64,000 bases of DNA from Halomarina litorea (lineage in GTDB: Archaea > Halobacteriota > Halobacteria > Halobacteriales > Haloarculaceae), in the NCBI RefSeq assembly GCF_024227715.1, contig NZ_CP100449.1:186001-250000 (forward strand). The letters run 5' to 3'. Below the pieces are notes generated by a model. That model did no database searches. It was not told where the DNA came from and worked only from the letters and a program-made list of their open reading frames with translations. Every line of letters starts with the position of its first letter. Within the stretch, counting starts at the first letter, position 1. Below, piece after piece: positions 15,080 to 42,083 of the stretch. A program made the position numbers and the translations under genes.

Positions 15080-17263
15080 TCAGTCGTCGCGGCGCGTGTC
15101 GTCGGTCGGGTCCCCGCCGGACGGGACGGCCCCGTCGCGGTCGTCCCGCACCGCGGCGAGTCCCGCCTCGAAGTGGTCTGCGGTGAGGTGGATGTCCTCG
15201 ACGTGGCCGCCGTCGTGAACGAACTCGCGGACGGCGGTCGCGGCGGCCTCTCGGCAGACCGCTTCGAGGTCCGCGCCGACGTAGCCCTCCGTGCGGGCCG
15301 CCAGTCCGTCGAGATCGACGTCGTCTGCGAGGGGTCGGTCGCGGGTGTGGACGGTCAGAATTTCGCGGCGGGCGGTCTCGTCCGGCGTCCCGACGTGGAC
15401 GTGGCGGTCGAAGCGGCCCGGCCGGAGGAGGGCGTCGTCCAGGAGGTCACGACGGTTGGTCGTGGCCACGACCACCACGTCCTCCAGTTCCTCCAGGCCG
15501 TCGAGTTCCGTCAACAACTGCGAGACGACTCGCTCGGAGACGCCGCTGTCGGCGGCCCCGCCCCCGCGTTCTGCGGCGAGGGCGTCGATTTCGTCGAAGA
15601 AGACGACGGTGGGGGCGTTCGCGCGGGCCTTCTCGAACACCTCGCGGACCCCTTTCTCGGACTCGCCGACGAACTTGTCGAGCACCTCGGGGCCCTTCAC
15701 CGAGATGAAGTTCGCGTCGGACTCGTTGGCGACGACTTTGGCGAGGAGGGTCTTGCCGGTTCCCGGCGGGCCGTAGAGGAGCACGCCCTTGCTCGGGCGC
15801 AACGAGACGCGCTCGAAGGCGTCGGGGTACGCGAGGGGCCACTGGACCGTCTCGCGCAGGCGGGACGTCGTCTCCTCGAGGCCGCCGACGTCGTCCCACG
15901 TCACGTCGGGCACCTCCACGAACACCTCCCGCAGCGCCGACGGGTCGACGCTCGTCAGGGCGTCGTCCAGGTCCGTCGCGTCGACCGTGAGGTCCGCCAG
16001 CGTCGCGGCCTCGACGGGTCGCTCGGCGTCCGGGCCGAGGCCGTGTCGCCGCACCGTCCGCAGCGCCGCCTCCCGGACCAGTCGTTCGAGGTCGGCCCCG
16101 ACGAACCCGTGAGTGCGCCCCGCCACGCGGTCCAGGTCGACGTCGTCGGCCAGCGGGACGTCCCGCGTCAGCACGTCGAGTACCGCACGGCGGCCGCTCC
16201 GGTCGGGGACCGGCACCGGCACCTCGCGGTCGAAGCGACCGGCCCGCCGCAGGTCCGGGTCGACGGCATCCAGTCGGTCGGTCGCCCCGACGACGGCGAC
16301 CCGGTCGTCCGTCTCGCGGTCGTCGAGCAGCGACACGAGGCGGGCGACGCGACGGCGACCCCGTTCCCCCCGGTGTTCGTCCAGCGCGTCGAGGTCGTCG
16401 AGGAAGAGCACCGCGGGGGCCGCCTCGGTCGCCTCGGCGAGCGCCGCCCCGACGGGGTCGGCGTCGCCGGCATCGGCTGAGACCACCTCCGCGCCGGTGA
16501 TGCGGACGACCGGCACCCCCGCCTCGTTCCCGAGCGCCTCGACCAGACGGGTCTTGCCGGTCCCCGACGGGCCGTGCAACAGGACGCCGTTCGGGGGGTC
16601 GACGTCCAGCGCGCGGAACACCTCCGGGTGCGCGAGGGGGAGTTCGACGAACTCCCGGAGGCTGGCGACGGCGTCCGTCTGCCCGCCCACGTCGTCGTAC
16701 CCGATCGCCCGTGCCCGGTCGAGCGGGACGGTTCCGGGGCCGTCCGTGGCCGTCCCCGAGAGGCGGATGGCGGACCAATCGCGGACGACGACCGGCCCCT
16801 CGGGGGCCGTCTCCGCCACGTGGACCGGGACGGCGTGGTCCGCGTCCGCGGTGTGGCCGCCGCCCCCCGCCCCGCCGGCGTCCCGTCCGAGCGCGAGGGT
16901 CTGTCCGGCGACGACTGCCCGCCCGACCAGCGCGTCCTTGAGGTCGAACGCCGCGGACTCGGAGGCGGCCGCCGGGAGCGAGAGGGTCACCCGCTCGGCG
17001 GTGGCCGGGTCGGCGCGCCGGACCGTCACGGTGTCGCCGACACCCACGTCGAGCGTCCGGCGGAGCGCACGCGGGAGGCGGGCGACGCCCTCGCCGGTGG
17101 TCGCGCCCGCCCCCACGCGGGCCGTCGCGACGGCGACGGCACCGTCGGATTCGAGCCGAACCGACTCGCCGTCCTCGACACCGAGCGCTCGTATCGTCCC
17201 GGCGGCGACGTCGGCCTCGCCGGCGGCGGTCGACCCCAGCGCACCCTTGACGGTCAACTCCAT
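15080..17263 (-). CDS. CDC48/p97-like AAA ATPase, copy 1 (degenerate D1)
   Basis: 727 residues: N-terminal double-psi-barrel-like substrate domain (1-175), AAA domain D1 (about 185-440) and D2 (about 455-700). D2 is canonical: Walker A GPPGTGKT at about 498-505, Walker B FFDEID near 555 and sensor ATTNR. D1 has a good Walker A (GPSGTGKT, 231-238), but its Walker B is FLDD rather than DE and its sensor-1 is ATDR rather than ATNR. D2 is almost identical in DNA to that of the copy at 32020. The gene diverges from the 17422-20087 PQQ-dehydrogenase operon, suggesting a dedicated unfoldase or remodelling factor for it. ATG at 17263 has a GATATG element about 27 nt upstream. Confidence 0.9.
15168..15649 (-). 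repeat. D2-coding segment nearly identical to 33646-34127 (inverted copy)
   Basis: By hand alignment, 482 bp of the D2 region of this AAA gene matches 33646-34127 with about 11 mismatches, including uninterrupted runs of 194, 119 and 104 bp in which synonymous sites are also identical. The flanking D1 and N-terminal coding regions are strongly diverged. The copies are in opposite orientation about 18 kb apart. Confidence 0.85.
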
Positions 17264-17421
17264 CGCAATCGTGTCACGGCCCAACGCATATCAAGGCGTG
17301 GGTGCGAACGACCGGTATCGGCCTGCCCTCCGGAGTGGCGACGCTCGACCCCGCGGGGGTATCCTCGTCCGTCTCGGTCGGCAACATTTAATAACGCCTA
17401 AGCGTTGTGCTGACACGGTTC
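17264..17421. promoter_or_regulatory. Divergent promoter region between AAA copy 1 and the PQQ-dehydrogenase operon
   Basis: 158-bp spacer. For the rightward operon, TTTAATAA at 17387-17394 is a clear TATA box about 31 nt before the ATG at 17422. For the leftward AAA gene, a GATATG element near 17288-17293 (minus strand) lies about 27 nt before its ATG. A short inverted repeat (17393-17406) sits at the rightward TATA box. The equivalent spacer in the second module is 31788-32019. Confidence 0.6.
17393..17406. repeat. Inverted repeat AACGC-CTAA-GCGTT (candidate operator)
   Basis: Perfect 5-bp arms with a 4-bp spacer, overlapping the 3' edge of the TATA box and the expected transcription start zone of the 17422 operon. 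A repressor bound here would block TBP/TFB or polymerase. It is short enough to be chance. Confidence 0.35.
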
Positions 17422-18348
17422 ATGGGAGAGACATACAAGCCCCGGGTCACCGCTCGCGACAGGGAGCGGTTGGCGGCGGACCTCGGCACCCCCGAGGTGT
17501 CCGCCGATGGCGAGGCGACGTTCGCCGACCTCAGAGCGGCGGTCGCTGCGGGTGCGGACCCGCAGTTCGCCTCGATGGGGGCGGCCATCAGAGCCGACCT
17601 CCGGGGGCAGTTGGACGCGGAACGTATCGACGAGGCGCTGGCCGGACTGGACGAACAGCTCCGTCGGGCCGAGGAGGTCCGCGAGGTGGGCGTCCCCGAG
17701 CGCGTCGGGAAGGGGGACGCCGGGGTGCCGGAGGCCTACCGGGAGCTCATCGCCCCCGTCTGGGAGGCGTACGACCACCTCGTCGAGGTGGGGTTCTTCG
17801 AGAGCCTCTCGTCGAACCTCCCGGCGTTCACCCCCGAGCACATCGACGGGACAGCGCGGGGTCTGCTGACGGCCGACGCGCTGGCGACCGACCTCGCGGA
17901 CGTCGGGTTCGACGAGCGCGAGCGGACGGCCCTCCTGATGGACGTCGTCAACAACGACACCCGCCTCTCGCGGTGGGTCCCGACGGCCGACATCCCGGAG
18001 GGCGTCGAGTTCAACGTGGACTACGTCCCGCCGCTGTACCACCGCGCGGTGGGCGGGGGCCTGCTCTGGGTGAAGTCGCTCGACCGGCACCTCGTCCAGA
18101 AGGAGATTCTCCTCACCGAGGACGTCCTCGACGACGCCTTCTGGCGGGCGAAGGCCATCCTCGGCGGGGTGGCCGTGTTCCTGCGGGCGGCCCGCGACGT
18201 CGCCAGCGACGAACCGGAACAGACCGACGAGCAGCTGGTCGCGGGCCTCAGCGGGGGCGCGGCCATCACCATCGTCAACCAGGAGGAGCTGATGCGCGAG
18301 GCGTACTGGCTCACCGAGGAGAAACGAGCGCCCACCCGGGCGAGGTAA
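17422..18348 (+). CDS. Unrecognised protein of the PQQ-dehydrogenase module, copy 1
   Basis: 308 residues, no signal peptide or membrane segment, acidic and mainly helical. Homologous along its length to the protein at 30876: both contain GFFxS (about residue 130), GFDERExTxLLM, RWVPTAxIPxGVEFNVxxVPPL and AVGGGLLW-like segments, and a C-terminus ending in a conserved INQ/VNQ-E motif plus APTRAR or APSEVR. The invariant RWVPT, EFNV and VPPL stretches may mark a binding surface. It is followed after 17 nt by the PQQ dehydrogenase, an order kept in both copies. A subunit, cofactor-insertion or maturation factor is plausible; no known family is recognised. Confidence 0.8.
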   Translation: MGETYKPRVTARDRERLAADLGTPEVSADGEATFADLRAAVAAGADPQFASMGAAIRADLRGQLDAERIDEALAGLDEQLRRAEEVREVGVPERVGKGDAGVPEAYRELIAPVWEAYDHLVEVGFFESLSSNLPAFTPEHIDGTARGLLTADALATDLADVGFDERERTALLMDVVNNDTRLSRWVPTADIPEGVEFNVDYVPPLYHRAVGGGLLWVKSLDRHLVQKEILLTEDVLDDAFWRAKAILGGVAVFLRAARDVASDEPEQTDEQLVAGLSGGAAITIVNQEELMREAYWLTEEKRAPTRAR

Positions 18349-18365: not shown

Positions 18366-20087
18366 ATGGCGACAAACCAGGAAGACAAGGCGATCCAGGC
18401 AGCGAGCGAGACTATCGTCGAGGAGACGGAACTCGGCTACCAGGTGTTCAACGCGCCCGACGAGTCCGTGCTCCACCAGCACGACACCGACCGCATCCCC
18501 CAGTTCGACGTGACACAGGAGATGCTCGACGACGCCGGCGAGGACCCCGAGAGCTGGCTGATGTTCGGCAAGAACTACGAGGCCCACCGCTACACGACGG
18601 CCGACGTCATCACGCCCGAGAACGTCGACGGGCTGGAACTCGAATACGAGATGGAGGTCGGCGCGAACTCCAGCATGGAGGGTTCGCCGGTCATCGTGCC
18701 GGGCGACCCGCCGGTGATGTATCAGACGAACGGCCCGAGCCACGTCAAGGCCATCGACGCCCGCGAGGGCGAGGTGCTCTGGAGCTACACCTACCCGGCA
18801 CCCGAGGACGCGGTGCTGTGCTGTGACGACAACAACCGTGGCGTGGCCGTCTGGGAGGACAAGGTGTACATGACCTCGCTGGACTCGGGCGTGCAGGCGC
18901 TCGACCGCTACACCGGCGAGGAACTCTGGTACACCTCCACGGCCGACTACAAGGAGGGCTACTCGGCGACGTGGGCGCCCATCGTCTACGACGGGAAACT
19001 GTTCACGGGGAGCGCGGGCGGCGAGTACGGCGTTCGCGGGTTCCACTGCTGTATCGACGCGGAGACGGGCGAGGAACTCTGGCGGATGCACCCCTGCCCC
19101 GAGGAGGAGTACATCGGCGACTCCATCAAGCAGTCGGGGGGGACCAACTGGATGAGTCCGACGCTCGACACCGAGCGCGAACTGCTGTACTTCAACGTCG
19201 GCAACCCGAGTCCCGACTTCAACGGCACCGTCAGGCCGGGCCCGAACCGCAACACCTGCTCGACCATCGCGGTGGACATCCACACCGGGGACGTCGTCTG
19301 GTCGCACCAGGAGTCGGCCCACGACATCTGGGACTACGACTCGGCGATGCAGCGCATGCTCATCCGCGACGTGGAGATAGACCACCTCGACTACTCCGGC
19401 GACATCGTCTACAACGCCGGGAAGACGTCGTGGTCGTACACGATGCACCCCGACACGGGCGACCTGTTGGTCCGGGGTGAGCCCCTCACCCAGCAGCTCA
19501 ACTTCATGCGGCAGGTGCCCCACGTCGAGGAGGAACGCGAGTACGTGATGCTCCCCGGCCTGCTGGGCGGTCAGGACTGGCAGCCCGCCTCCTACAGTCC
19601 CGAGACCGGGCTGTGCTACCACAAGGTGCTCAACACGCCCCACTCTGTGGCGTGGCGCAACGAGGAGTACCGCCCCGGCGAGAAGTTCTGGGGCGGCATC
19701 GTCGACGTCGAACCCGACGAGGAGGACATCCCGGACGAGTACAACGGCCACATCAGCTGCATCGCGGCCGTCGACCCCACCACCGGGCAGGTGAAGTGGC
19801 GCGACTGGATCGACAGCGACCGGTACCTCTGGGGCGGCTCGATGACCACCAGCACCGGTTTGCTGTTCGCCGGGACGCAGAACGGCCAGCTCGTCGCCTA
19901 CGACGCCGAGGACGGCGAGCGACGCTGGGAGTTCGACCTCTCGGACAAGGCCGTCTCCGGCGACCCGGTCAGCTGGTACGACCCCGACACGGAGAAGCAG
20001 TACGTCGCCATCCAGGTGGGCGGCAGCGGATTCGTCGGCCGCGGCCCGCGCGGCGACCGACTCGCCGTCTTCTCGCTGGCGAAGTAA
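18366..20087 (+). CDS. PQQ-dependent (XoxF-like) alcohol dehydrogenase, copy 1, without signal peptide
   Basis: 573 residues of the eight-bladed quinoprotein propeller family. Visible active-site features: adjacent cysteines LCCDDNNRG (152-153, PQQ-clasping disulfide), metal ligands Glu220 in GGEYGVRG and Asn280 in VGNPSPDF, and IWDYD with the catalytic-type Asp323 plus Asp325. The second Asp is the hallmark of lanthanide-dependent enzymes; calcium enzymes have Ala or Ser there. W-motif repeats (DAETGEELWR and similar) recur. The N-terminus (MATNQEDKAIQAASE) is hydrophilic with no Sec or Tat signal, unlike periplasmic homologues. Substrate unknown, probably a primary alcohol or aldehyde. Confidence 0.88.
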   Translation: MATNQEDKAIQAASETIVEETELGYQVFNAPDESVLHQHDTDRIPQFDVTQEMLDDAGEDPESWLMFGKNYEAHRYTTADVITPENVDGLELEYEMEVGANSSMEGSPVIVPGDPPVMYQTNGPSHVKAIDAREGEVLWSYTYPAPEDAVLCCDDNNRGVAVWEDKVYMTSLDSGVQALDRYTGEELWYTSTADYKEGYSATWAPIVYDGKLFTGSAGGEYGVRGFHCCIDAETGEELWRMHPCPEEEYIGDSIKQSGGTNWMSPTLDTERELLYFNVGNPSPDFNGTVRPGPNRNTCSTIAVDIHTGDVVWSHQESAHDIWDYDSAMQRMLIRDVEIDHLDYSGDIVYNAGKTSWSYTMHPDTGDLLVRGEPLTQQLNFMRQVPHVEEEREYVMLPGLLGGQDWQPASYSPETGLCYHKVLNTPHSVAWRNEEYRPGEKFWGGIVDVEPDEEDIPDEYNGHISCIAAVDPTTGQVKWRDWIDSDRYLWGGSMTTSTGLLFAGTQNGQLVAYDAEDGERRWEFDLSDKAVSGDPVSWYDPDTEKQYVAIQVGGSGFVGRGPRGDRLAVFSLAK

Positions 20088-20146: not shown

Positions 20147-20914
20147 ATGCCACCGAAGGACATCGAGGCGGTCGACGACCTGGAACGAGCGGTCCGGGCA
20201 GACCCGACCGTCCTCCCCGACATCGCGGACCGTATCGACGCCCGACTCGCGGGCGAGGACCTGACCGACCGCCTCGACGCGGGGCGGGCGCTGCGAGCCG
20301 CGGCGAGCCACGACCCCGAACTGGTCGAACCGCACGTCGAGACGCTCGTGGCCCTCCTCTCGTCCGAGCAGGGGTCCCTGCAGCTCTCGGGGGCCATCGG
20401 TGTCGCCGAGTACGCCGGCCTCGCGCCCGAGGACCCGCGGGTGCTCCGAGCCGTCCCGCGACTCGTCGAACTCCTCGACGAGACGGTCGCGCCGGCCATC
20501 GAGGAGGCGACGGTCCGCACGCTCGGCCGGGTCGGGATGCGGGACCCCGCGGCCGTCACCGACGCCGACCCCGTCGTGGCAGCCCTGTTCCGCGAGGCGA
20601 CGTTCCCGACGCGGACGGTCATCTGCAAGTGGTTCGTCCGGGCCGTCGCCGAGGACCCGCGGCAGTTTCCCGAGACGGTGGCGGCCTACGCCGCCGTCGT
20701 CGCCGACGAGGACGACGCGATGGCCCGCTTCGCCGCCGAGGCGATAGCGCGGGTGGCGAGCGCCGACCCCGGGGCCGTCTCGGACCCGGCGCGGGTGCTC
20801 GCTGACCTCGAAGCGCTGGAGGCGAAAGTGGACGCCGACCCCCGCCGCGGCGTCGGCGAGGGCGTCAGGGACGCCGCGCGGACCTTCCGCGAACTGCACT
20901 CGGCGAACGGGTGA
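20147..20914 (+). CDS. HEAT/ARM-repeat-like protein
   Basis: 255 residues, all-helical, Ala/Val/Glu/Asp-rich, with repeated helix pairs of about 35-40 residues: VEPHVETLVALLSSEQG, LRAVPRLVELLDE and ATVRTLGRVG are typical HEAT signatures. No catalytic motif, signal or membrane segment. It follows the PQQ dehydrogenase by 59 nt on the same strand and is likely in the same transcript. HEAT proteins are scaffolds for protein assembly, so an adaptor role for the dehydrogenase or AAA protein is possible but unproved; no copy accompanies the second module. Confidence 0.7.
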   Translation: MPPKDIEAVDDLERAVRADPTVLPDIADRIDARLAGEDLTDRLDAGRALRAAASHDPELVEPHVETLVALLSSEQGSLQLSGAIGVAEYAGLAPEDPRVLRAVPRLVELLDETVAPAIEEATVRTLGRVGMRDPAAVTDADPVVAALFREATFPTRTVICKWFVRAVAEDPRQFPETVAAYAAVVADEDDAMARFAAEAIARVASADPGAVSDPARVLADLEALEAKVDADPRRGVGEGVRDAARTFRELHSANG

Positions 20915-20928: not shown

Positions 20929-21420
20929 TCAGTCGTCGGTCGCCGACTCGACCGGCCGCCCGTCGTCCGCCCCCCGGTCCGCGGCCAGTTTCGGCAGGGA
21001 GTTGAAGACGACCCGAACGTGGTCGCTCTCCGGTTTGCAGACGCAGGTGAGACGCATGTTCCCCTCCTCGACCTCCTCGTCGGTCAGCGCGAGATTCATG
21101 TCCATCTCCGCCTCCCCCTCCAGCAGGACGGCCGTACAGACGTTGCAGGTCCCCGACCGGCACTGGGACCCCCACTTGAGGTCGTTCGCCTCCGCCGAGC
21201 GCAACAGCGTCTCGTTCCGGTCGACCTCCATCCGCCCGTAGTCGAGGTCGCTCAGGTCGAGGGCCGCCGCCTTCTCGAAGACGTCGTCCTCCTCGAGGTC
21301 CCACCCGTTGCGCTGGACGACCCGATAGTCGAGGTACTCCACCTCCGCCGGGGGGAGGTCCTCGGAGTCCGCTTCCGACGTCTCGACGCCCGGACCGACT
21401 GCGGGCAGCTCGATGTCCAT
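20929..21420 (-). CDS. 2Fe-2S ferredoxin, divergent haloarchaeal type
   Basis: 163 residues. Plant-type cluster motif CRSGTCNVC (C-x4-C-x2-C) near residue 98, with a fourth Cys in LTCVC about 30 residues later. The N-terminal region VEYLDYRVVQRNGWDLEEDDVFEKA is the acidic insertion domain of haloarchaeal ferredoxins. The C-terminus diverges from the usual form: KLAADRGADD replaces the HLDYLRDRV seen in the copy at 27984. Likely a dedicated electron carrier, perhaps for the PQQ dehydrogenase to which its gene is convergent. Start ATG at 21420. Confidence 0.9.
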   Translation of the reverse strand: MDIELPAVGPGVETSEADSEDLPPAEVEYLDYRVVQRNGWDLEEDDVFEKAAALDLSDLDYGRMEVDRNETLLRSAEANDLKWGSQCRSGTCNVCTAVLLEGEAEMDMNLALTDEEVEEGNMRLTCVCKPESDHVRVVFNSLPKLAADRGADDGRPVESATDD

Positions 21421-21857: not shown

Positions 21858-22685
21858 CTACACGTCCGTCGGTCCTCGGGCGGCCGTCCGCCGTTCGAGC
21901 CAGGCGGGCAGGAGGTAGAACGCGAGGCCGAGTGCGACCAGCGCGGCGAGGGCGGCGTACGTCCGGTCGGTCCGGAGCGCCGTCGAGGTGACGAACACGC
22001 GGTAGCCGAGGCCGGCGGTGAGCGTGACGAACTCGGAGACGACGGTCCCGATGACCGACAGCGCCGCCGCCAGTTTCACCCCCGCGAGGACGCTCGGCGC
22101 GGCGGCGGGGACGCGCACCCGCAGGAAGGTCCGGAGGGGCGAGGCGTCGACGGAGCGCGCGAGGTCGAGGTACGGGTCGGGGACGGCTCGGAGTCCCCCG
22201 ACTGAGGCGACGGCGACGGGGAACTGCGTCAGCGTCGTCACGAGGAGCGCGCGGGCGGGGAGGCCCCGCCCGAACCAGAGAAAGAGCAGCGGGGCGATGG
22301 CGACCAGCGGCGCGATACGGAGGCCGACGACGAACGGGCGCGCGACGAGTTCGACGGTCCGCGAGACGGTCATCCCGAAGGCGACGAGGAGGCCGACGAC
22401 CACCCCGCCGAGCAGTCCCAGCGCCGCGGTCGCACCCGTGACGGCGGCGTCGCCGAGCAACACCCGCCACGACGCGACGAGTTCCGCCCCCACGTCGGTC
22501 GGCGAGGGGAGGACGACGGTCGGTATCGCGTAGACGACGGTGGCGGCCTCCCATGCCGCGAGGACGGAGACGAACAGGAGTGCGGCGGGGCCGTACCGAC
22601 CGGCGAGTCGGCGGGCTTCGTCCACTCGCCACGAGACGTCCCCGACCACCGGGTCGTGGTCCTGTTCCCGCCGGGACTCGCCCAT
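21858..22685 (-). CDS. ABC transporter permease, NitT/TauT type
   Basis: 275 residues with a 30-residue hydrophilic lead and about six membrane segments. LPSPTDVGAEL and the EAA-loop LARSVDASPLRTFLRVRVPAAAP place it in the SsuC/TauC family. It starts one base after the binding-protein stop, so the two are coupled. No ATPase gene follows; the paralogous permease at 14241 comes with an ATPase but no binding protein, suggesting the two loci form one transporter. Confidence 0.9.
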   Translation of the reverse strand: MGESRREQDHDPVVGDVSWRVDEARRLAGRYGPAALLFVSVLAAWEAATVVYAIPTVVLPSPTDVGAELVASWRVLLGDAAVTGATAALGLLGGVVVGLLVAFGMTVSRTVELVARPFVVGLRIAPLVAIAPLLFLWFGRGLPARALLVTTLTQFPVAVASVGGLRAVPDPYLDLARSVDASPLRTFLRVRVPAAAPSVLAGVKLAAALSVIGTVVSEFVTLTAGLGYRVFVTSTALRTDRTYAALAALVALGLAFYLLPAWLERRTAARGPTDV

Positions 22686-22686: not shown

Positions 22687-23832
22687 TCAGTCCCCGACCT
22701 GCTCGGCGTACGACCCGACGTACGTCGCCTCGAGGTCGAGGTAGTCGTTCGTCCAGACGCTCGCCGGGTCGACCTCCCCGCCCAGCGAGTCCGCGCCCGT
22801 CAGGGTCTCGTGCATCGTCGCCCACGGGTCCGACTGGCTCCACCCCCACCCCTGCTCGCGGACCGCCCCCGAGAGGACGAACTCGCGGCTCATCAGCTCC
22901 CACTTGTCGCGCTGGCGGTCGCGCGACTCGCTCAGCGCCGGCACCGCCTCGACGAGGTGGTCGGTGGCCGCCTCGGGATTGTTCGTCGCCCAGGCCGCCC
23001 CGTGGGCCGTCGCGCGCAGGAACGCCCGTACCGTCTCGGGGTGCTCCTCGCCGAGCGAGGGCGGGGTGGCGATGACGTGCCCGTAGGAGGGTATCTCGGC
23101 GGCGACGGGCACCGAGTCGACGGTCGCCCCCTGGTGGCGGGCGTCGACCACGTCGCCGAAGACGCCCCCCGCGGCGTCGATGTCGCCCGTGAGGAGGCGC
23201 TGGACGGTGTCGAACCCCGTGTCGACCAGTTCCACCTCCTCGCGGACACCGGCTTCCTCCAGGAGGAGCGTCGAGAGCAGGCGGACCATGCCGGGGCCGG
23301 TCCCGAGTCGTTTGCCCCGCAACTGCTCGACGCCGGTGAACTCCCCGCCGAGGGACTCGCGCGTGGCGAACAGGACGACCGGACTCCGCTGCATCACGAC
23401 GCCGACCGACCGCGGTGAGAGTTCGCGACTGTTGACGTTGAGCACCTGGTCGGCGCTCGTGACGGCGAAGGGGGTGTTGCCGAGGCCGACCTGCTTCGCG
23501 GAGAAGTCCGATCCCTGCCCGCTCTCGATGCTCGATAGCGTCAGCCCCTCCGCCTCGTAGAACCCCTCGGCGCGCGCCGCGTAGTAGGGGACGTGCAGGC
23601 CGCTCGGCTTCCAGTTCAACAGAAGCGACACGTCCGACCGGGTCGGCGTCGCCTCGTCGGGCGTCCCCGAGGCGGTGTCGTTCCCGGCCGTCGTCTCCGT
23701 GGTCGCCCCGCCGTCGGTCGTCCCGTTCCCGGTGTCACCGTCCCCGTCGCCGGACGGCCCACCGATGCCGAGACACCCGGACGCCACGGTCACCCCTGCC
23801 GCCGAGAGGAACGCTCTCCGAGGGTAGCTCAT
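22687..23832 (-). CDS. NMT1/THI5-type ABC substrate-binding lipoprotein
   Basis: 381 residues. Tat-like signal YPRRAFLSAAG and lipobox ASGC within the first 20 residues, then a Gly/Thr/Asp linker to about residue 60. The binding domain begins SLLLNWKPSGLHVPYYAARAEGFY, the NMT1/THI5 signature, and ends with GWGWSQSDPW and VWTNDYLD, shared with the signal-less protein at 36552. It is the only exported member among five NMT1-fold proteins in the window. Members of this family bind pyrimidine precursors of thiamine, sulfonates, nitrate or aromatic acids; which applies here is unknown. Confidence 0.9.
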   Translation of the reverse strand: MSYPRRAFLSAAGVTVASGCLGIGGPSGDGDGDTGNGTTDGGATTETTAGNDTASGTPDEATPTRSDVSLLLNWKPSGLHVPYYAARAEGFYEAEGLTLSSIESGQGSDFSAKQVGLGNTPFAVTSADQVLNVNSRELSPRSVGVVMQRSPVVLFATRESLGGEFTGVEQLRGKRLGTGPGMVRLLSTLLLEEAGVREEVELVDTGFDTVQRLLTGDIDAAGGVFGDVVDARHQGATVDSVPVAAEIPSYGHVIATPPSLGEEHPETVRAFLRATAHGAAWATNNPEAATDHLVEAVPALSESRDRQRDKWELMSREFVLSGAVREQGWGWSQSDPWATMHETLTGADSLGGEVDPASVWTNDYLDLEATYVGSYAEQVGD

Positions 23833-23895: not shown

Positions 23896-24186
23896 CTACT
23901 CGACGCTGAGGCCGTCCGCCGCCCCGCCGGTGAACTCCAGTTCGATCTCCAGTTCCCCCTCCTCGTGGCTCACGAACTCGACTTCCACCTCGATGGGTTC
24001 GCGGAACGAGAAGGGGACTTCCCACTCGTCGCTGGCGACGGTGAGTTCGGTGCCCGCGTCCAGTTGGTCGGCGAGTTCTCGGAGGAACGCCGCGGTGTCG
24101 GTCCGCGAGAGGTGGACCTCGCGTTCGAAGTACCCCTCCGTCACAACCGTCCGGCCCTCGTCACCGTCGCCTGGCAGGTTCGGCAT
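23896..24186 (-). CDS. Amphi-Trp domain-like protein
   Basis: 96 residues. FEREVHLSRTDTAAFLRELADQL followed by alternating strand pattern WEVPFSFREPIEVEVEF and ELEIELEF matches the amphi-Trp domain, a short haloarchaeal module of unknown function. Start ATG at 24186. It is divergent from the HTH regulator at 24290, with about 100 nt between the two starts. Confidence 0.7.
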   Translation of the reverse strand: MPNLPGDGDEGRTVVTEGYFEREVHLSRTDTAAFLRELADQLDAGTELTVASDEWEVPFSFREPIEVEVEFVSHEEGELEIELEFTGGAADGLSVE

Positions 24187-24289: not shown

Positions 24290-24625
24290 ATGTCGCTGTT
24301 CGACGTGCTCGGGAGCAAGGCGCGCCTGCGGATTCTCCAGGAGCTCTCGTCCGAACCCCGGTACGTCTCGGAACTGGCCGAGCGGGTCGGGATGGACGGG
24401 AAGACGGCGGTCCACCACCTCTCGGTGCTGGAGGAGGCGGACGTCGTCACGAGCTACTGGGTGAGTCGGCGGAAGTACTACCGCCTCGCGAAGACGGTCG
24501 AGTTGCGGGCGGCACCGCCGCCGGACCGGACGTTCGTCCTGCACGCCCAGCACGCCGACGAGAAGCCGACACCCAGTGACGCCACGGCCGGCGAGGGGGC
24601 CGAGAGCGAGGGCGCCGGCGACTGA
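24290..24625 (+). CDS. ArsR-type winged-HTH transcriptional regulator
   Basis: 111 residues. LGSKARLRILQELSSEPRYVSELAERVG then KTAVHHLSVLEEADVV is a complete ArsR-like winged helix (residues 5-60) with a wing SYWVSRRKYYRLA. The C-terminal tail is disordered and acidic. No metal-binding Cys/His cluster is visible, so it is not an obvious metal sensor. It stands 81 nt upstream of the exchanger-family gene on the same strand and may control it. Confidence 0.85.
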   Translation: MSLFDVLGSKARLRILQELSSEPRYVSELAERVGMDGKTAVHHLSVLEEADVVTSYWVSRRKYYRLAKTVELRAAPPPDRTFVLHAQHADEKPTPSDATAGEGAESEGAGD

Positions 24626-24706: not shown

Positions 24707-25906
24707 ATGCGCTTCGGTAGCAGGCCACTAGGTGTCGTACTGGTCGCTGTGGTCCTTCTGGGGGTGGTCGCGGCCGGCGGCGTCGTGGCACAGGAGGCCG
24801 ACGAGGCACGCGAGGCCGGTGAGGAAGGTGAGGAAGGGGGTATCGAGGGGATGCTCGCCGGGTTCGTCGAGGGACAGGGGCTGGTGGGGGCGGTGCTCGT
24901 CCTCGTCGCGGGGATGCTCCTCCTGACGGCGTGCGTCGAGAAACTCATCAGCTACCTCACGCGCGCGGCCTTCGGGTTGCAGGTGTCGCTGTTCGCCCTC
25001 GCCGTCGTCTTCACGGGCTTCGAGTTCGACGACACCATCCTCGCGCTGGTCCTCTCGGCGGGTGACCTGGAGGGGGCGGCGCTGGGGACGGCGCTCGGGA
25101 CGGGGCTGGCCATCGTCGGCGTGACGCTGGCGCTCGCGGCCATCGTCGAGCCGTTCCCGGTCGACCTCCCGACCGACTACGTGGCCCTGTTCGGCCTCTC
25201 CCCGCTGCTCCTCGTCCCGTTCGTCCTCGCGGGGACGCTGACGTTCGTCCACGGGCTGCTCCTCCTCGGAGCGTTCGTCCTCATGTTCGGCTACATCGTC
25301 GTCCGCGAGTTCCAGCGCGACTCGCGGGTGTTCTGGGACACGGACGTCGGCGGTCGGGTGCAGGCGGACGGCGGCGTCGCCCTCCCCAAGGCTGTCTCGC
25401 GTATCCCCGAGGACCGGTTCGTCGGCGGGCGGACCGGGTCGGGGGCCATCTGGCTGGTGCTCGCGGTGCTCGCACTTGCGGGCATCGTCTTCGCATCCAT
25501 GTTGCTGGAGGTAGGGTCCGAGGTGGTCGTCGAGGGCTTCGGCATCGAGCAGACGGTGTTCGGCGCGACGGTGCTCACCGCCATCCTCACGTTCGAGGAT
25601 ATCATGCTCACGCTCGAACCGGTCCGCCGGGGGGTCCCCGAAATCGGCGTCGGGAACGTCATCGGGAGTGTCCTCTTCTCGCTGACGGGCAACGTCGGCG
25701 TCATCATGCTCCTGAGCGAACTCGACATCTCGGGGTCGGTGCTCACCTTCCACCTCCCCGTCGTGGTGCTCGTGACGGCGCTCGCGGCGTACTTCCTCCA
25801 CGAGGGCCGACTGGAACGCTGGCACGGCTACCTGCTCGGCGGCCTCTACGTCGCCTACTGGGTGGTCGCCATCGCCCTCTTCGGCGGCGTCCCGCTCGGT
25901 GGCTGA
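24707..25906 (+). CDS. CaCA-family (Na+/Ca2+ exchanger-like) membrane protein with signal peptide
   Basis: 399 residues. A hydrophobic N-terminal signal (LVAVVLLGVVAAGGVVAQ) precedes an acidic stretch, then about ten membrane segments arranged as two related halves. The alpha-repeats contain TGFEFDDTILAL...GTALGTGLA and TFEDIMLTLEPVRRGVPEIGVGNVIGS, the exchanger pattern with acidic residues in the ion path. A central hydrophilic loop separates the halves. Likely exports Ca2+ or another cation against Na+/H+. It is convergent with a paralogue at 25920. Confidence 0.82.
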   Translation: MRFGSRPLGVVLVAVVLLGVVAAGGVVAQEADEAREAGEEGEEGGIEGMLAGFVEGQGLVGAVLVLVAGMLLLTACVEKLISYLTRAAFGLQVSLFALAVVFTGFEFDDTILALVLSAGDLEGAALGTALGTGLAIVGVTLALAAIVEPFPVDLPTDYVALFGLSPLLLVPFVLAGTLTFVHGLLLLGAFVLMFGYIVVREFQRDSRVFWDTDVGGRVQADGGVALPKAVSRIPEDRFVGGRTGSGAIWLVLAVLALAGIVFASMLLEVGSEVVVEGFGIEQTVFGATVLTAILTFEDIMLTLEPVRRGVPEIGVGNVIGSVLFSLTGNVGVIMLLSELDISGSVLTFHLPVVVLVTALAAYFLHEGRLERWHGYLLGGLYVAYWVVAIALFGGVPLGG

Positions 25907-25919
25907 ACGCACACTGTGA

Positions 25920-27002: not shown

Positions 27003-27092
27003 GGTCGGATCAGCGGCGGGGTCACCTTATAGGGATGGGCCGTGACGGCCCGCCGAGTTTATGTCCCTCGACCCGAAGGTGTCGACGACTGC

Positions 27093-27983: not shown

Positions 27984-28469
27984 ATGTGCCCGCAGCCGCA
28001 GTTGCCGAACGTCAAGGTCGGTCGTGACGCCGAGGCGGACGCCGCGGACGAAGAACCCGAAGCGACCCGGACGGTCGAGTATCTGAACTACCAGGTCCTC
28101 ACGGAGCGAGGGTGGACGCTGGAGGACGACGATCTCTTCGAGAAGGCGGCCGAGGCGGACCTGGACGACGCCGACCACGGCACGTTCGAGGCCGGGGCGA
28201 CCCGCTACATTCTCGACGCCGCTGAGGACCAGGGCCACCAGTGGCCCTTCGAGTGTCGCGCGGCCTCTTGTGCGAACTGCGCGGCCATCCTCGTCGAGGG
28301 CGAGGTGACGATGGACATGGACCTCATCCTCACCGACGAGGAGGTCGAAGAGAAGGGAATCATCCTCACCTGTCAGAGCCTCGCGGTCACCGACCGGGTG
28401 GGGATCGTTTACAACGCCCAGCACCTCGACTATCTCCGCGACCGGGTCATCGGCGTGCGGGAGGTGTGA
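27984..28469 (+). CDS. 2Fe-2S ferredoxin, haloarchaeal type
   Basis: 161 residues with the complete haloarchaeal ferredoxin pattern: acidic insertion domain [25 protein letters not shown], cluster motif CRAASCANC, fourth Cys in LTCQS, and C-terminal HLDYLRDRV. The plant-type [2Fe-2S] centre is used as a cytoplasmic one-electron carrier for oxidoreductases such as 2-oxoacid:ferredoxin and aldehyde:ferredoxin oxidoreductases. Near the second PQQ-dehydrogenase module and in the same window as AOR, either of which could donate electrons. Start ATG at 27984. Confidence 0.93.
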
Positions 28470-29159: not shown

Positions 29160-30872
29160 TCAGGCGGACATCGAGAAGATGGCCAGCCGGGTGTCGCGCT
29201 TGCCGCGACGGAGCCACCCGCTGCCGCCGATCTGGAACGCGATGTACTGCTTGTCCGTCCCGGGGTCGTACCAGCTGACGGGACTGGAGGAGATGGGCGC
29301 GTCGCCCGTGTCGAACTCCCACAGTCGCTCGCCGTTCTCGGCGTCGTAGGCGATGACGTTCCCGTTCTGCGTGCCGGTGAACATCAGGCCCGTCGCCGTG
29401 GACATCGTCCCGCCCCAGAGGTAGGTCTCGCTGTCGATCCAGTCGCGCCAGACCCGCTCGCCCGTCTCGGGGTCGATGGCGCTGATGGAGGCGATGTGGC
29501 CGTTGTACTCGTCGGGCATCGCCTCGGTCTCGTCTTCGAGGATGCCGCCCCAGTACTTCTTGCCCTCTTCGAACTCCTCGAAGCGCCACCACGCCTCCTG
29601 AGCGTTGTTGTGCATCTTGTAGTAGATGAGCCCGGTCTCGTGGTTGTAGGTGGGTGGCTGCCAGTCGTTGCCGCCCATCCCACCGGGCATGAACGTCCCG
29701 CGGCGTCCCTCGTCGATGTGGGGAATCATGCTGAACATGTTCAGCTGCTGGACCCCCGGCTCGGAGCGCTCGATGAGTTGGCCCGTCTCCGCGTCGACGG
29801 TGTACGCCCACCCGGTCTTGCCCGCGTCCACGACGACGTCTTTGGTCTGGTTGCGGTGGGATATCTCGAGGTCCTCGATGAACACGCGCGGGCACGCGGA
29901 GTCGTAGTCCCAAACGTCGTGGGGCGACTCCTGGTGGAACCAGAGTCGTTCGCCCGTCTCGGCGTCGAGACAGAGCGTCCCGCAGGTGTTGCGGTTCGGC
30001 CCCGGGCGCACCGATCCGTCGAAGTCCGGGCCGGGGTTGCCTACTGGTAAGTAGAGGCGGTTGCGCTTCTCGTCGAAGGTGGCCGTCATCCAGTTGGTGC
30101 CGGCGGCCTGGTTGATGGAGTCGCCGACCCACTCCTCCTCGGGGCAGGTGCGGGTGAACCACTTCTCCTCGCCCGTCTCGCAGTCGATGGCGGTGTGGAA
30201 GCCGCGCACCCCGTACTCGCCGCCCGCGCTCCCCGTGTAGAGGGTGCCCTCGTGGACGATGGGCGCCCACGTCGCCGAGTAGCCGCGCTCGTGGTCGGCC
30301 GTCGAGTGGTACCACTCCTCCTCGCCGGTGTAGCGGTTCAGGGCCTGCACCCCCGAGTCGAGGGTCATCATGAACACCTTGTCCTCGTAGACGGCCACGC
30401 CCCGGTTGTTGTCGTCACAGCAGAGCATGACCTCCGAGGGGACGGCGTAGGTGTAACTCCAGAGGACGTCGCCCTCGCGCGGGTCGATGGCCTTCAGGTG
30501 GTTCGGGCCGTTCGACTGGTACATGATGGGCGGGTCGCCCGGCACGATGACCGGCGACCCCTCCATGCTCGACCCGGCCCCGACCTCCAGGTCGTGTTCG
30601 AGTTCGAGTTGGTCGACGTTCTCCTTCGTGATGACGTCGGCCGTGGTGTAGCGGTGCTGATGGTAGTTCCCGCCGTACATCAGCCACGCCTCCTCGTTCT
30701 CCCCGGAGTTGCTCAGCATCTCCTGGGTGACGTCCTTCTGGGGGATGCGGTCGACGTCGTGTTGGTGTGTCACAGACTTGTCCGGCGACCCCAGCACGCG
30801 ATACCCGTTGTCCGTCTCCCGTACGACTGTGTCCTGTGCGGCCTTGACGGCCCTGTCTTCTTCGATTGACAT
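29160..30872 (-). CDS. PQQ-dependent (XoxF-like) alcohol dehydrogenase, copy 2, without signal peptide
   Basis: 570 residues, paralogous to the 18366 protein along its whole length. Active-site features: CC at 151-152 in MLCCDDNNRG, Glu219 in GGEYGVRG, Asn279 in VGNPGPDF, and VWDYD with Asp322 and Asp324, again the Asp-x-Asp pair of lanthanide-type quinoproteins. C-terminal propeller blades have DPETGERVWR and DAENGERLWEF. The N-terminus MSIEEDRAVKAAQDT is hydrophilic, so no export signal is visible. It follows the unrecognised 30876 protein by 3 nt. Substrate unknown; the two copies may differ in specificity or expression. Confidence 0.88.
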   Translation of the reverse strand: MSIEEDRAVKAAQDTVVRETDNGYRVLGSPDKSVTHQHDVDRIPQKDVTQEMLSNSGENEEAWLMYGGNYHQHRYTTADVITKENVDQLELEHDLEVGAGSSMEGSPVIVPGDPPIMYQSNGPNHLKAIDPREGDVLWSYTYAVPSEVMLCCDDNNRGVAVYEDKVFMMTLDSGVQALNRYTGEEEWYHSTADHERGYSATWAPIVHEGTLYTGSAGGEYGVRGFHTAIDCETGEEKWFTRTCPEEEWVGDSINQAAGTNWMTATFDEKRNRLYLPVGNPGPDFDGSVRPGPNRNTCGTLCLDAETGERLWFHQESPHDVWDYDSACPRVFIEDLEISHRNQTKDVVVDAGKTGWAYTVDAETGQLIERSEPGVQQLNMFSMIPHIDEGRRGTFMPGGMGGNDWQPPTYNHETGLIYYKMHNNAQEAWWRFEEFEEGKKYWGGILEDETEAMPDEYNGHIASISAIDPETGERVWRDWIDSETYLWGGTMSTATGLMFTGTQNGNVIAYDAENGERLWEFDTGDAPISSSPVSWYDPGTDKQYIAFQIGGSGWLRRGKRDTRLAIFSMSA

Positions 30873-30875: not shown

Positions 30876-31787
30876 TTATCTGACTTCGCTCGGGGCGCGC
30901 ATCTCGTCCGTGATACGGTAGGCGTCCCGGCAGATCTCCTGCTGATTGATGATGGCGATGGCGGTGCCCGCCGTGAGCGCCGCCGTCGCCTGGCTGTCCG
31001 TCAACTCGTCCGTGCCGCCGTCCGCGATCTCGAGGGCCGCCCTCGTCAGGAGGTAGAGCCCGCCGAGCATCGCCTTCACGTCCCAGACGGCGTCGTCGAG
31101 AATCGTCTCGGTGATGAGCACCTGCTTCTGCCACAGGTGGACGTCGAGGGTCTGTATCCACAGCAGCGCCCCGCCCATCGCCCGCTGTTGGAGCGGCGGG
31201 ACGTCCTCGACGTTGAACTCGACCCCGTCCGGGATCTGGGCAGTGGGAACCCATCGCGCCAGCCGGTCGTCGTTGTTCGTCACGTTCATCATCAACACCG
31301 TCTGTTCGCGCTCGTCGAAGCCGGCGTCGGCCAGTTCGTCCGTGAGCGTCTCGGACTCGACGAGTCCCTGCGCGGTGTGTCTGATGTGGTCGCTCGAGAA
31401 GCGTGGTGAGTGCACGTCGACGCTGTCGAAGAACCCGACGTCGAGGAGGTGTTCGTACACCCGCCAGCCCGGTTCGGCGACAGCCCGATACAGCACCTCG
31501 GGTTCCCGGTCCCCGTCGGGGATGCCCACCTCCCGTATCGAGGGGAGGCGGGCCACCTGCTCGACGATGTTCTCCAGTTCGCGTTCGAGGAGGTCCGCGT
31601 CGAGTTCCCCTTCCAGGTCGCGCCGGGTCGACTCGCCGAGCGAGGCGAACGCCGGGTCGGCCTCCGCCTCGACGGCGTCGCGCATCTCCCCGATACTCAA
31701 CGACTTCCCCCCGGCCTCGATGCCGAGCGTCCTCGTCAGCTGTTCCTCGTCCTCGTGCGTCACCTGCGGTGTACTCACATCGACCAT
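30876..31787 (-). CDS. Unrecognised protein of the PQQ-dehydrogenase module, copy 2
   Basis: 303 residues, homologous to the 17422 protein: shared segments include VGFFDS, TAQGLVE/TARGLLT, GFDEREQTVLMM, RWVPTAQIPDGVEFNVEDVPPL, MGGALLWIQTLD and IINQQE. Soluble, acidic and helical, without cofactor motifs I can name. The ATG at 31787 is preferred to one at 31817 because it leaves a plausible CTATAT promoter element at 31824-31829. It is translated immediately upstream of the PQQ dehydrogenase (3-nt gap), the same order as in copy 1. Confidence 0.8.
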   Translation of the reverse strand: MVDVSTPQVTHEDEEQLTRTLGIEAGGKSLSIGEMRDAVEAEADPAFASLGESTRRDLEGELDADLLERELENIVEQVARLPSIREVGIPDGDREPEVLYRAVAEPGWRVYEHLLDVGFFDSVDVHSPRFSSDHIRHTAQGLVESETLTDELADAGFDEREQTVLMMNVTNNDDRLARWVPTAQIPDGVEFNVEDVPPLQQRAMGGALLWIQTLDVHLWQKQVLITETILDDAVWDVKAMLGGLYLLTRAALEIADGGTDELTDSQATAALTAGTAIAIINQQEICRDAYRITDEMRAPSEVR

Positions 31788-34194
<2,407 letters not shown>

Positions 34195-35916: not shown

Positions 35917-36216
35917 TTACTCGCCCGAGAGCGGGTCGCCGCGTCGCGTCACCTTCGTCGCGGGGAGGCCCGCGCGGTCGGCGTGTTCCCGTACCGTCTG
36001 TTCGTCCTGCGCCTGGTAGTGGCAGAACGTCCCGACGACGCGGTCCTCGTCGTCCGTCAGCACCTCCGAGTCCACCCAGTGGATGTCCTTGCCCTCCTCG
36101 CGGAGTGCCTCCAGGGTCTCCCCGGAGGCGTCGGCGGCCGCCGAGAGGTCCTCCCGGGTGATCGGTTCGTCCAGTTCGCGCAGGATGAGGAAGTCGTGCG
36201 TGTCTCGGTCTGCCAT
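35917..36216 (-). CDS. DUF4242-like (SCO4226-type) small protein
   Basis: 99 residues. HDFLILRELDEPITREDLSAAA, then IHWVDSEVLTDDEDRVVGTFCHYQA and REHADRAGLPATKV, fit the ferredoxin-like DUF4242 family. A Streptomyces member, SCO4226, binds nickel; the Cys/His pair in FCHYQA could do likewise. Start ATG at 36216. Function unknown. Confidence 0.7.
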   Translation of the reverse strand: MADRDTHDFLILRELDEPITREDLSAAADASGETLEALREEGKDIHWVDSEVLTDDEDRVVGTFCHYQAQDEQTVREHADRAGLPATKVTRRGDPLSGE

Positions 36217-39411: not shown

Positions 39412-39496
39412 GCGAGTTACTAGCTACCACTAGCGCCACTTAACGGTTCTGCAGGAACCTTTATGACATTGAGACATCTGTGTGGCAGGTGCTACC

Positions 39497-39871
39497 ATGA
39501 ATATCGTCACGGAGGACGATCGCGACCCGACCGAGGTGGCACAGGACGTCTTCCTGTCCGACCTCGCGGGGGGCGAACGGGCGTCGATGAAGTTCTGGCG
39601 GGTCGAACCGGGAGCGCGCCTCCCGGTCCACGACCACGAGAACGAGCAGGTCGGGTTCGTCATCAGCGGCACGCTGACCGCTCTCGTCGAGGGCGAGGAA
39701 CGACCGCTCCGGCCCGGCGACTCCTACGTCTTCCCGGGCGGGGAGCGTCACGGCGCGGAGAACCGCGGCGACGAACCGGCCGTCGGCATCGGCGTCCTCA
39801 GCCCCCCGCGCGAGGAACCGGACTGGGGAAAGGGGGAGCGCGAACCGCCCATCGCCGGGTCCGACGACTGA
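39497..39871 (+). CDS. Cupin domain protein
   Basis: 124 residues. A single small beta-barrel cupin: PVHDHENEQVGFVISG supplies the first metal-binding motif (His-x-His...Glu) and GDSYVFPGGERHGAEN the second (His). The family includes small dioxygenases, isomerases and sugar or metabolite sensors. Divergent from the NMT1-fold operon (86 nt between starts), so it may act on or sense the same compound. Start ATG at 39497. Confidence 0.85.
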   Translation: MNIVTEDDRDPTEVAQDVFLSDLAGGERASMKFWRVEPGARLPVHDHENEQVGFVISGTLTALVEGEERPLRPGDSYVFPGGERHGAENRGDEPAVGIGVLSPPREEPDWGKGEREPPIAGSDD

Positions 39872-39884: not shown

Positions 39885-41576
39885 TCACTCCACGCGCGAC
39901 CGGGGGACGGTGCCGTCGTCGTCCCACCCGCGTTTCTCGTAGTACTCGTCGAGAGCCGCCTCGAACCCCGGCAGGTCGTAGGGGAGGGCGTCGTCGCGCC
40001 GGTCGAACCCGCGCCGGTTGTTGAAGTGCCGTTCGAGGTCGACGACCCGCGCGCCCACGGCCTGCAGCGAGTCCACGTCCGTATCGAGGAGGGCGGCGAG
40101 TCGGTCCTCGCCAACCACGTCCCGCGAGAACCGACAGCAGATGGCCGAGTCGAGGACGGCGTTCCGGTTCTCCGTCTCGACCAGTCGCTCGGCCTTCCCC
40201 GCGAACCCCGTCGGGTCGAGGGCGTCGTCGGGGCCGACCAGCGGGTACTCGTAGACGTACATGCTCCCGTAGAGGTGGTCCGCACCCCGGTTCGACGTGG
40301 CGAACGCGAGCGCCTGCCCGTTCAGGGTGCGCCCGTCGTGGGCGGCGAATTCCATCCCCTTCGCCGTCCAGTTCTCCACGTCCAGTCGCCCGTGCGCGCG
40401 GTCGACACCCTCCGCCAACAGGTCGCCGACCCCCTCGCGACGGGCGATCTTGCCGACGAGGTCCGTGACGAGGTCGACGTCCCCGAACGCCCCCTCGCTG
40501 GCGAGGTAGGCGGAGACGGTGTCACCGCAAGAGATGGTGTCCATCCCGAATTCGTCGCACAGGTCGTTGGCGTGCATCACGTCCACGACGTCGTCCACGC
40601 CGGCGTTCGACCCGAACGCCATCACCGTCTCGAACTCCGGCCCCTCCGTCTCGACGCCGCGTTCTTCGTCTCTCGTGGGGAGTTTGCAGGCGAACGCGCA
40701 CTGCGAGCAGGTGCCCTTCCTGTACTTCTTGGCCTCGACGGCGTCTCCCCCCACGTCCGCGGCCCCCTCGAAGGCCAGTTCCGAGAAGTAGCGCGTCGGG
40801 AGCGCACCCACCTCGTCGGCGTACGTCGTCAACCCGGCCGTCCCCTGCCGACGCATCACGCTGTCGCTGGTCGCGGCCCCCCGGTGGACGGCATCGGCTA
40901 CCGCCTCGCCGCTCTCATCGTCCTCGCTCACCTCCCCGCCGACGTCGACGTCCGGCGTCGAGTCGCCGTCGAAGGTGAGGAGTTTGACGTTCTTCGCGCC
41001 GAGGACGGCGCCCAGTCCCCCGCGCCCGAACGCGCGGGACTCGCTGGTCATGACGGCGGCGAAGCGGACGCGGTTCTCGCCGGCGGGGCCGACGCACGCG
41101 ACGTGTTCGGCCCCCTGTCCGTGGCGCTCCTCGACGTGGTCGGTCACCTCGGAGGTGAGCGCCCCCCGCAGGTCAGGGACCGGTTCGACCCGGACCCCGT
41201 CGTCGCGGACGTGGACCGCCACGAGTTCGTCGCTCGCGCCGACGAGTTCGACGGCGCTGTAGCCCGTCGCGCCGAAGTTCCGCGAGAGGAACCCGCCCGC
41301 GTTCGAGGAGCAGAGGCCGCCGGTCAGCGGCGAGAGGCCGGTACACGAGAGCCGGCCGGTGAAACTCGTCCGCGAGGACTGGAGCGGTCCCGTCGCGAAG
41401 ACGAGGCGGTTCTCGGCACCGAACGGGTCGGCGTCGAACGGGATGCGCTCGTGGGCGAGGCGCGTGCCGACGCCGCGTCCCCCGACGAACCGTTCGAGGA
41501 CGTGGTCCACGTCGGACTCGTGTGTCTCCCCGGTCCCCACGTCGACAGTCAGCAGTGGTCCCGTCGCGTGCAACAT
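39885..41576 (-). CDS. aor: Aldehyde:ferredoxin oxidoreductase (tungsten enzyme)
   Basis: 563 residues (AOR family usually about 600). N-terminal RFVGGRGVGTRL and SRNFGATGY are AOR_N signatures for the bis-pterin tungsten cofactor; the [4Fe-4S] motif CSQCAFAC lies near residue 300 and a further Cys pair (AICC) near 500. It oxidises aldehydes to acids and reduces ferredoxin in the cytoplasm. It could take the aldehydes made by the PQQ dehydrogenases and hand electrons to the ferredoxins at 20929 or 27984 (inference). ATG at 41576 gives MLHATGPLLTVDVG; the open frame upstream is not conserved. Confidence 0.9.
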   Translation of the reverse strand: MLHATGPLLTVDVGTGETHESDVDHVLERFVGGRGVGTRLAHERIPFDADPFGAENRLVFATGPLQSSRTSFTGRLSCTGLSPLTGGLCSSNAGGFLSRNFGATGYSAVELVGASDELVAVHVRDDGVRVEPVPDLRGALTSEVTDHVEERHGQGAEHVACVGPAGENRVRFAAVMTSESRAFGRGGLGAVLGAKNVKLLTFDGDSTPDVDVGGEVSEDDESGEAVADAVHRGAATSDSVMRRQGTAGLTTYADEVGALPTRYFSELAFEGAADVGGDAVEAKKYRKGTCSQCAFACKLPTRDEERGVETEGPEFETVMAFGSNAGVDDVVDVMHANDLCDEFGMDTISCGDTVSAYLASEGAFGDVDLVTDLVGKIARREGVGDLLAEGVDRAHGRLDVENWTAKGMEFAAHDGRTLNGQALAFATSNRGADHLYGSMYVYEYPLVGPDDALDPTGFAGKAERLVETENRNAVLDSAICCRFSRDVVGEDRLAALLDTDVDSLQAVGARVVDLERHFNNRRGFDRRDDALPYDLPGFEAALDEYYEKRGWDDDGTVPRSRVE

Positions 41577-41657: not shown

Positions 41658-42083
41658 ATGGACGCCGTCGACCACATCAACCTCGACGTCGACCGCCTCG
41701 ACGACTGTTACGAGTTCTACGACGAGGTGCTCGGCCTCGAACTGCTCCGCCCCCCCTCGGACTTCGAGGGCGACCACGCCATGTTCGAGGCGGGCGACAC
41801 CGTCGTCACCCTCGCGGAGACGGGCCGCGCCGAAGGGTGGGACGAACGGGGACTCGACCACCCCCTCGACAAGGCCCACGTCGCGTTCGCGACGGACCGC
41901 GAGGACTACGAGTCCCTCGTCGCCGAACTCGACGGGCAGTTCCCCAAGCAGGGTCCCTACGACTGGGGCGACTTCGAGGGGTTCTACTTCCTCGACCCGG
42001 ACGGCAACCTCCTCGAAGTCGTCACGTACGACGCGCCCGACCCGGCCCACGAGCGAACGCTCCTCACCCACGACGACGTGTGA
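41658..42083 (+). CDS. VOC-family (glyoxalase/dioxygenase-fold) protein
   Basis: 141 residues. VDHINLDVDRLDDCYEFYDEVLGLEL and HVAFATDREDYESLVAEL then FYFLDPDGNLLEVVTYD give the two beta-alpha-beta-beta-beta units with His, Glu metal ligands. Could be a glyoxalase I-like, epimerase or ring-cleavage type enzyme. Divergent from AOR (81 nt between the starts). Start ATG at 41658. Confidence 0.85.
   Translation: MDAVDHINLDVDRLDDCYEFYDEVLGLELLRPPSDFEGDHAMFEAGDTVVTLAETGRAEGWDERGLDHPLDKAHVAFATDREDYESLVAELDGQFPKQGPYDWGDFEGFYFLDPDGNLLEVVTYDAPDPAHERTLLTHDDV

Follow-up and report, generated by a model that had tools for sequence, protein, structure and literature searches.

The window, by which we mean the whole 64-kb stretch of DNA that was analysed, carries two genes of a haloarchaeal quinoprotein family in which, according to the explanation favoured here, signal-less enzymes would cross the membrane by Tat hitch-hiking on a helical partner protein (P313), while the subclade that includes both window copies has been rewired and is most likely cytoplasmic. 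We hold this overall explanation with moderate confidence. Copy A would be a PQQ-type alcohol/aldehyde dehydrogenase whose metal site (Glu220, Asn280, Asp323, and Asp325) is of the lanthanide type, and the enzymes are predicted to act in complex with P313. The two gene pairs are as follows.

17407..18348, + strand: P313-A, all-helical and without known family, with an eroded Tat signal (DRERLAADLGTPEVSADGEATFADLRAAV)
18366..20087, + strand: PQQ-DH copy A, 573 aa, 8-bladed quinoprotein fold, no signal peptide
29160..30872, - strand: PQQ-DH copy B, 570 aa, 63% identical to copy A
30876..31817, - strand: P313-B, partner of copy B, no Tat signal

Copy A falls within the PQQ alcohol dehydrogenase superfamily by its propeller fold and its PQQ domain match, with Pfam hits to PF01011 (1e-55) and PF13360 (1.7e-26). 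Against TIGR03075, the NCBI methanol/ethanol family, copy A scores 380 bits (1.8e-113) and copy B 369 bits, both below the curated cut-off of 480 bits; copy A therefore appears to be a relative of this family and not a clean member. The solved structures closest to copy A by sequence are the quinohaemoprotein alcohol dehydrogenase 1yiq, PedH (6zcv/6zcw), and XoxF (6dam/4mae). An AlphaFold2 model of copy A, built together with seven relatives, is of modest quality (pLDDT 71, pTM 0.79), and a Foldseek search of the PDB with this model returned the lanthanide alcohol dehydrogenase PedH first (E = 5e-36). The active site of copy B is complete and the same as that of copy A. Both genes are under purifying selection, with dN/dS values against Halomarina sp. 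BND7 of 0.10 for copy A and 0.12 for copy B. The family is present in 76 of the 392 Halobacteriales genomes sampled, about a fifth, and in 21 of 90 genera. A search confined to the open-access literature turned up no account of a lanthanide-dependent or cytoplasmic quinoprotein in haloarchaea, nor of this quinoprotein family, of P313, or of the Tat/cupredoxin switch described below.

A sequence-only reading of this DNA had picked out a Cys-Cys clasp, Glu220, Asn280, and Asp323/Asp325 in copy A. All of these were confirmed with the numbering right (Cys152-Cys153; D323-Y-D325), and Glu105, Arg158, Trp262, and Lys353 make up the rest of the PQQ/metal site. The comparison of these residues took in 61 different haloarchaeal relatives as well as 13 bacterial homologues. 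D323, D325, N280, W262, R158, and K353 are found in all 61 haloarchaeal relatives and E220 in 60 of them. The main PQQ and metal ligands are invariant in clades A to C (50/50), as are the Cys-Cys clasp and E105 (50/50), which are mostly lost in the divergent clade D. Conservation of the active-site residues is far from chance. The clade D relatives (L101-L106, L125, L134) keep the Glu/Asn/Asp/Asp metal site with the Cys-Cys clasp and Glu105 mostly gone, and their quinone pocket, judged from these residues, may be different.

Use of Ln3+ by the window enzymes is a fair prediction. The Asp-x-Asp pair is a recognised signature and a good predictor for XoxF and PedH, in which the second Asp coordinates Ln3+ (PMC11845868). 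It is present in 61/61 haloarchaeal relatives and 11/13 bacterial homologues; the XoxF controls (L127, L128) read W-D-[FY]-D, whereas the MxaF-like control from Paracoccus denitrificans (L129) reads W-D-Y-A, with Ala at the Asp325 position. Gly219, which precedes Glu220 in copy A, is likewise of the XoxF/PedH type, as opposed to the Ala of MxaF. The lanthanide-type site proposed earlier thus holds as far as its signature goes, but the motif is not proof of lanthanide use because it also occurs in the membrane glucose dehydrogenase of E. coli, for which lanthanide dependence is not established (PMC11996626). This shared motif would also suit an ordinary Ca2+ (or Mg2+) quinoprotein in which Asp325 is ancestral and confers no lanthanide dependence, an alternative that we take seriously without favouring it. 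Its near-universal occurrence in our sample points the same way, as do the Na+/Ca2+-exchanger genes nearby and a neighbourhood in which no known lanthanide-handling protein was recognised; the role of the second Asp in XoxF and PedH and the XoxF/PedH-type Gly219 argue for the lanthanide instead.

Copy A shares with PedH/ExaF (6zcv/6zcw) the fold, the Cys-Cys clasp, the Glu/Asn/Asp/Asp site, and the Trp under PQQ, at about 27% identity. PedH, however, is periplasmic with its own signal, whereas the window enzyme has none and carries instead an N-terminal extension of about 45 residues; it also has Lys353 where PedH has Arg, and its partners are P313, AAA, and ferredoxin proteins. With the XoxF methanol dehydrogenases it has in common the D-x-D motif, the clasp, and a Gly just ahead of the Glu that binds the metal, but it has Pro in place of the XoxF Thr in the GNPS-P/T-loop and no signal peptide, and the genes for cytochrome c (xoxG), XoxJ-like substrate-binding, and CxxCW proteins at the bacterial XoxF control loci have no counterpart in the annotated island of the window. 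The HMT thaumarchaeal quinoproteins are also archaeal PQQ dehydrogenases, some with DYD and some without predicted signal peptides (signal peptides occur in 15/21 families and transmembrane segments in 19/21), but they lack the Cys-Cys motif that the window enzymes have (PMC7300363).

The lack of a Sec or Tat signal on copy A, remarked on in the sequence-only reading, was borne out and extends to copy B and to all 61 haloarchaeal relatives. Near the N-terminus, the highest 13-residue Kyte-Doolittle mean does not exceed 1.02 in the 61 haloarchaeal proteins and lies at 1.58-2.47 in 12 of the 13 bacterial homologues, whose N-termini are clearly hydrophobic; the exception is a Streptomyces homologue (L132). 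This D-x-D quinoprotein of Streptomyces sp. NBC_01483 (L132 3001-4500) is also without a clear signal peptide. In 34/61 haloarchaeal relatives an in-frame stop no more than five codons from the start rules a signal out, and such a stop stands 1-2 codons before the ATG of copy B. The reading frame of copy A stays open 5' of its ATG, but only 17 nt separate this ATG from the end of the partner gene, and the upstream stretch contains no h-region. To our knowledge, descriptions of PQQ dehydrogenases present them as periplasmic or exported enzymes, and every lanthanide enzyme known so far belongs to this type. The missing signal had been offered as the reason for a cytoplasmic location. The location is plausible, but this reason is insufficient and was rejected as decisive proof: absence of an own signal cannot alone mark the window enzymes as cytoplasmic because all 61 haloarchaeal members lack one, many of them exported-looking and encoded beside a Tat-P313 and a Tat-cupredoxin.

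P313, a protein of about 313 aa, is an uncharacterised and nearly obligate partner of the haloarchaeal quinoproteins. A homologue lies directly upstream of the quinoprotein gene in 59 of the 61 haloarchaeal loci, and none was found beside the bacterial quinoprotein homologues. No Pfam or NCBIfam family was assigned to it, apart from the Tat signal in the Tat-type homologues. AlphaFold2 predicts an all-helical structure for it with good confidence (pLDDT 84, pTM 0.87), yet Foldseek found nothing in the PDB with an E below 0.39, and searching the PDB sequences with a profile yielded a single chance match of 0.08. An assignment of P313 as a PqqC/TenA-like cofactor enzyme was rejected, there being no PDB fold or profile match.

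A textbook twin-arginine signal stands at the start of P313 in 19 loci (e.g., DRRNFLKVLGVAGSVGAASELSLSDLRGAV). These are 19 of the 29 loci outside the window subclade, compared with 0/30 inside, and it is in these 19 relatives that the quinoprotein has a partner with a functional-looking Tat signal. The window partners have no such signal: the homologous stretches read DRERLAADLGTPEVSADGEATFADLRAAV in P313-A and DEEQLTRTLGIEAGGKSLSIGEMRDAV in P313-B, and neither protein matched TIGR01409, the NCBI Tat model, against which four tested P313 proteins scored above the cut-off. Subunit 3 of gluconate 2-dehydrogenase is a Tat hitch-hiker small subunit, that is, a small Tat-signal protein encoded beside a signal-less oxidoreductase. 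The P313 gene is placed in the same way next to a signal-less quinoprotein gene, but P313, unlike subunit 3, has no Pfam/NCBIfam family or PDB fold match, and in the window its signal is lost. Collectively, this pattern suggests that in the exported-type relatives the quinoprotein hitch-hikes through the Tat system on P313. P313 is not the sole possible carrier, because ten exported-looking loci have a cupredoxin gene and a P313 without a Tat signal.

The window subclade comprises 31 sequences (clade A/B), and the remaining 30 haloarchaeal loci formed the outside set. A homologue of the Tat-signal cupredoxin set lies near the quinoprotein gene in 22 of the 30 outside loci and in 0/31 inside; the Pfam Copper-bind cut-off was passed by 5/6 cupredoxin representatives scanned. 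Neither the whole 64-kb window nor four plasmid loci from the subclade, each 37-42 kb long, were found to contain a cupredoxin gene. A 2Fe-2S ferredoxin or Cdc48-like AAA gene occurs within 9 kb in all 31 subclade rows versus 0/30 of the others. In a quick-search tree, the haloarchaeal family forms one side of a branch with an SH-aLRT of 97, and the 31-row subclade sits on a branch with an SH-aLRT of 100. The switch from Tat/cupredoxin to ferredoxin/AAA neighbours happened once, on one branch of the tree, and as a single event it leaves the correlation without independent replicates. The family offers a natural before-and-after comparison between relatives with a Tat carrier and a blue-copper protein and a subclade without both. 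A decayed cupredoxin gene with frameshifts and stops was seen in the clade A/B locus of Natronococcus sp. AD-5 (L118 15906-16408, - strand); it is a possible fossil of the exported form.

Quinoproteins with azurin as acceptor are known (PMC12124388), and an exported-type enzyme of the present family would pass its electrons to the Tat-exported blue-copper protein. In the subclade with both window copies, the P313 Tat signal and the copper protein gene are gone, and the quinoprotein genes are linked instead to genes for ferredoxins, for Cdc48-like AAA ATPases, and for an aldehyde:ferredoxin oxidoreductase (AOR). This combination of losses and gains supports a cytoplasmic enzyme and is the reason that we consider both window enzymes probably cytoplasmic. 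That they are still exported, on another Tat substrate or through assembly outside, with the signal having moved from P313 to a different partner, seems unlikely to us. The ten relatives with a Tat-cupredoxin and a Tat-less P313 allow for another carrier, the island itself encodes a Tat-lipoprotein binding protein (22687-23832), and quinoproteins are described as periplasmic (PMC12124388); but neither a cupredoxin nor any other obvious Tat carrier is found in the window or in the four 37-42-kb relatives, and the newly linked partners are cytoplasmic protein types. If the cytoplasmic reading is true, PQQ and a lanthanide (or Ca2+) have to get into the archaeal cytoplasm, and the electrons from PQQ pass to some intracellular acceptor.

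The genes of the island around both copies are listed below.

15080..17284, - strand: Cdc48-like double AAA ATPase A, conserved in clade A/B loci
20147..20914, + strand: HEAT-like protein directly 3' of copy A (weak HEAT_EZ match, below cut-off)
20929..21420, - strand: haloarchaeal 2Fe-2S ferredoxin A (Fer2)
21858-22685, - strand: ABC permease
22687-23832, - strand: NMT1-type binding protein with a Tat-lipoprotein start (RRAFL...GC)
23896-24186, - strand: amphi-Trp protein, conserved with the exchangers
24290-24625, + strand: ArsR-type winged helix regulator, conserved with the exchangers
24707-25906, + strand, and 25920-27002, - strand: two Na+/Ca2+-exchanger family proteins
27984..28469, + strand: haloarchaeal 2Fe-2S ferredoxin B (NF041393, 196 bits, above cut-off)
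31975..34194, + strand: Cdc48-like double AAA ATPase B
35165-35896, - strand: SAM methyltransferase, conserved in the island
35917-36216, - strand: SCO4226-like/DUF4242 protein, conserved in the island
36552-37538, 37535-38518, and 38515-39411, - strand: three tandem NMT1/periplasmic-binding-fold proteins, no signal peptides
39482..39871, + strand: cupin, conserved in the island
39885..41576, - strand: AOR family protein (AFOR_N and AFOR_C; CxxCxxxC motif)
41658..42083, + strand: VOC/glyoxalase-superfamily protein, conserved in the island

The sequence-only reading had suggested ferredoxin as the electron acceptor. The genes are indeed linked (20929-21420 and 27984-28469), in support of some connection between the two, but the redox potentials are unfavourable for electron transfer from PQQH2: with PQQH2 at about +0.09 V and the low-potential haloarchaeal 2Fe-2S ferredoxin at about -0.35 V, the ferredoxin is not readily reduced. 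Its role as direct acceptor is thermodynamically doubtful, and the linked ferredoxin may serve the neighbouring AOR instead. The simplest reading of the island is a route from alcohol through aldehyde to acid, in which the window enzymes would oxidise an imported alcohol and the AOR would take the resulting aldehyde further. P313 and the AAA protein would help to fold or load the window enzymes in the cytoplasm.

The supply of PQQ counts against a cytoplasmic enzyme because no PqqC, and no PqqE scoring above cut-off, turned up in carrier genomes. The searches for both covered more than 50 carrier genomes. PqqC was found in 0/43 carriers and in none of 12 genomes of an earlier test, while the Paracoccus control scored 382 bits; no carrier genome had a PqqE above cut-off, against 547 bits for the positive control. 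The best PqqE-like match (139 bits, cut-off 381) was read by eye as a generic radical SAM/SPASM protein and rejected as a PQQ maker. The MBL protein at 34204-35118, considered as PqqB, had no match to a PqqB model among the families listed. The HMT genomes, in contrast to that of the window, in which neither PqqC nor PqqE was recognised, encode a PQQ synthase (PMC7300363). The carriers must scavenge PQQ, make it through a route not recognised here, or use a different quinone in its place. Among bacteria with PQQ enzymes, many do not synthesise the cofactor but scavenge it (PMC12124388). Scavenged PQQ for a cytoplasmic enzyme would need import across the membrane, for which the ABC transporter of the island is a speculative candidate.

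We are nonetheless fairly confident that PQQ is the cofactor of the window enzymes. A quinone other than PQQ, or a propeller without cofactor, would agree with the empty PqqC and PqqE searches, with the scores below the TIGR03075 cut-off, and with the existence in NCBIfam of a related empty-quinoprotein family (TIGR04528), but we judge it improbable, given that the TIGR04528 score is far below cut-off (261 versus 650), that the main PQQ/metal ligands are invariant in clades A to C, and that scavenging without synthesis is common in bacteria. Taken jointly, the window enzymes could be the first cytoplasmic lanthanide-dependent quinoproteins, derived from an exported copper-coupled enzyme through loss of the carrier's Tat signal, with rewiring to ferredoxin and AOR, AAA-assisted cofactor loading, and no PQQ synthesis by a known route; we put this full combination forward tentatively.

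The island cassette is common to Natrinema, Halococcus, Halalkalicoccus, Natronococcus, and other loci and is often plasmid-borne. Two AAA ATPases, two P313 proteins, and two ferredoxins form its pairs, and its other members are the AOR, three NMT1-fold proteins, the cupin, VOC, methyltransferase, and SCO4226-like proteins, the ABC transporter, the Na+/Ca2+-exchangers, and the winged-helix regulator. The order of the tandem NMT1-fold trio (36552-39411) is conserved across the island; these signal-less proteins are possibly cytoplasmic enzymes rather than transporter parts, and the one at 38515-39411 had no match in the PDB. The exchanger pair (24707-27002), with the ArsR-type regulator and the amphi-Trp protein, recurs beside several quinoprotein clades, and this group is perhaps tied to metal supply. 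A conserved Cys-rich protein (window 27042-27920) with a GENRCLPCTVVN motif, about 9 Cys, and hydrophobic segments is found again in most clades, whether or not P313 carries a Tat signal there. The quinoprotein-P313 pairs of clade C (L087-L093, L124) appear to lie not in an island but among translation genes whose products were read by eye as NusA-like, S7, and EF-2.
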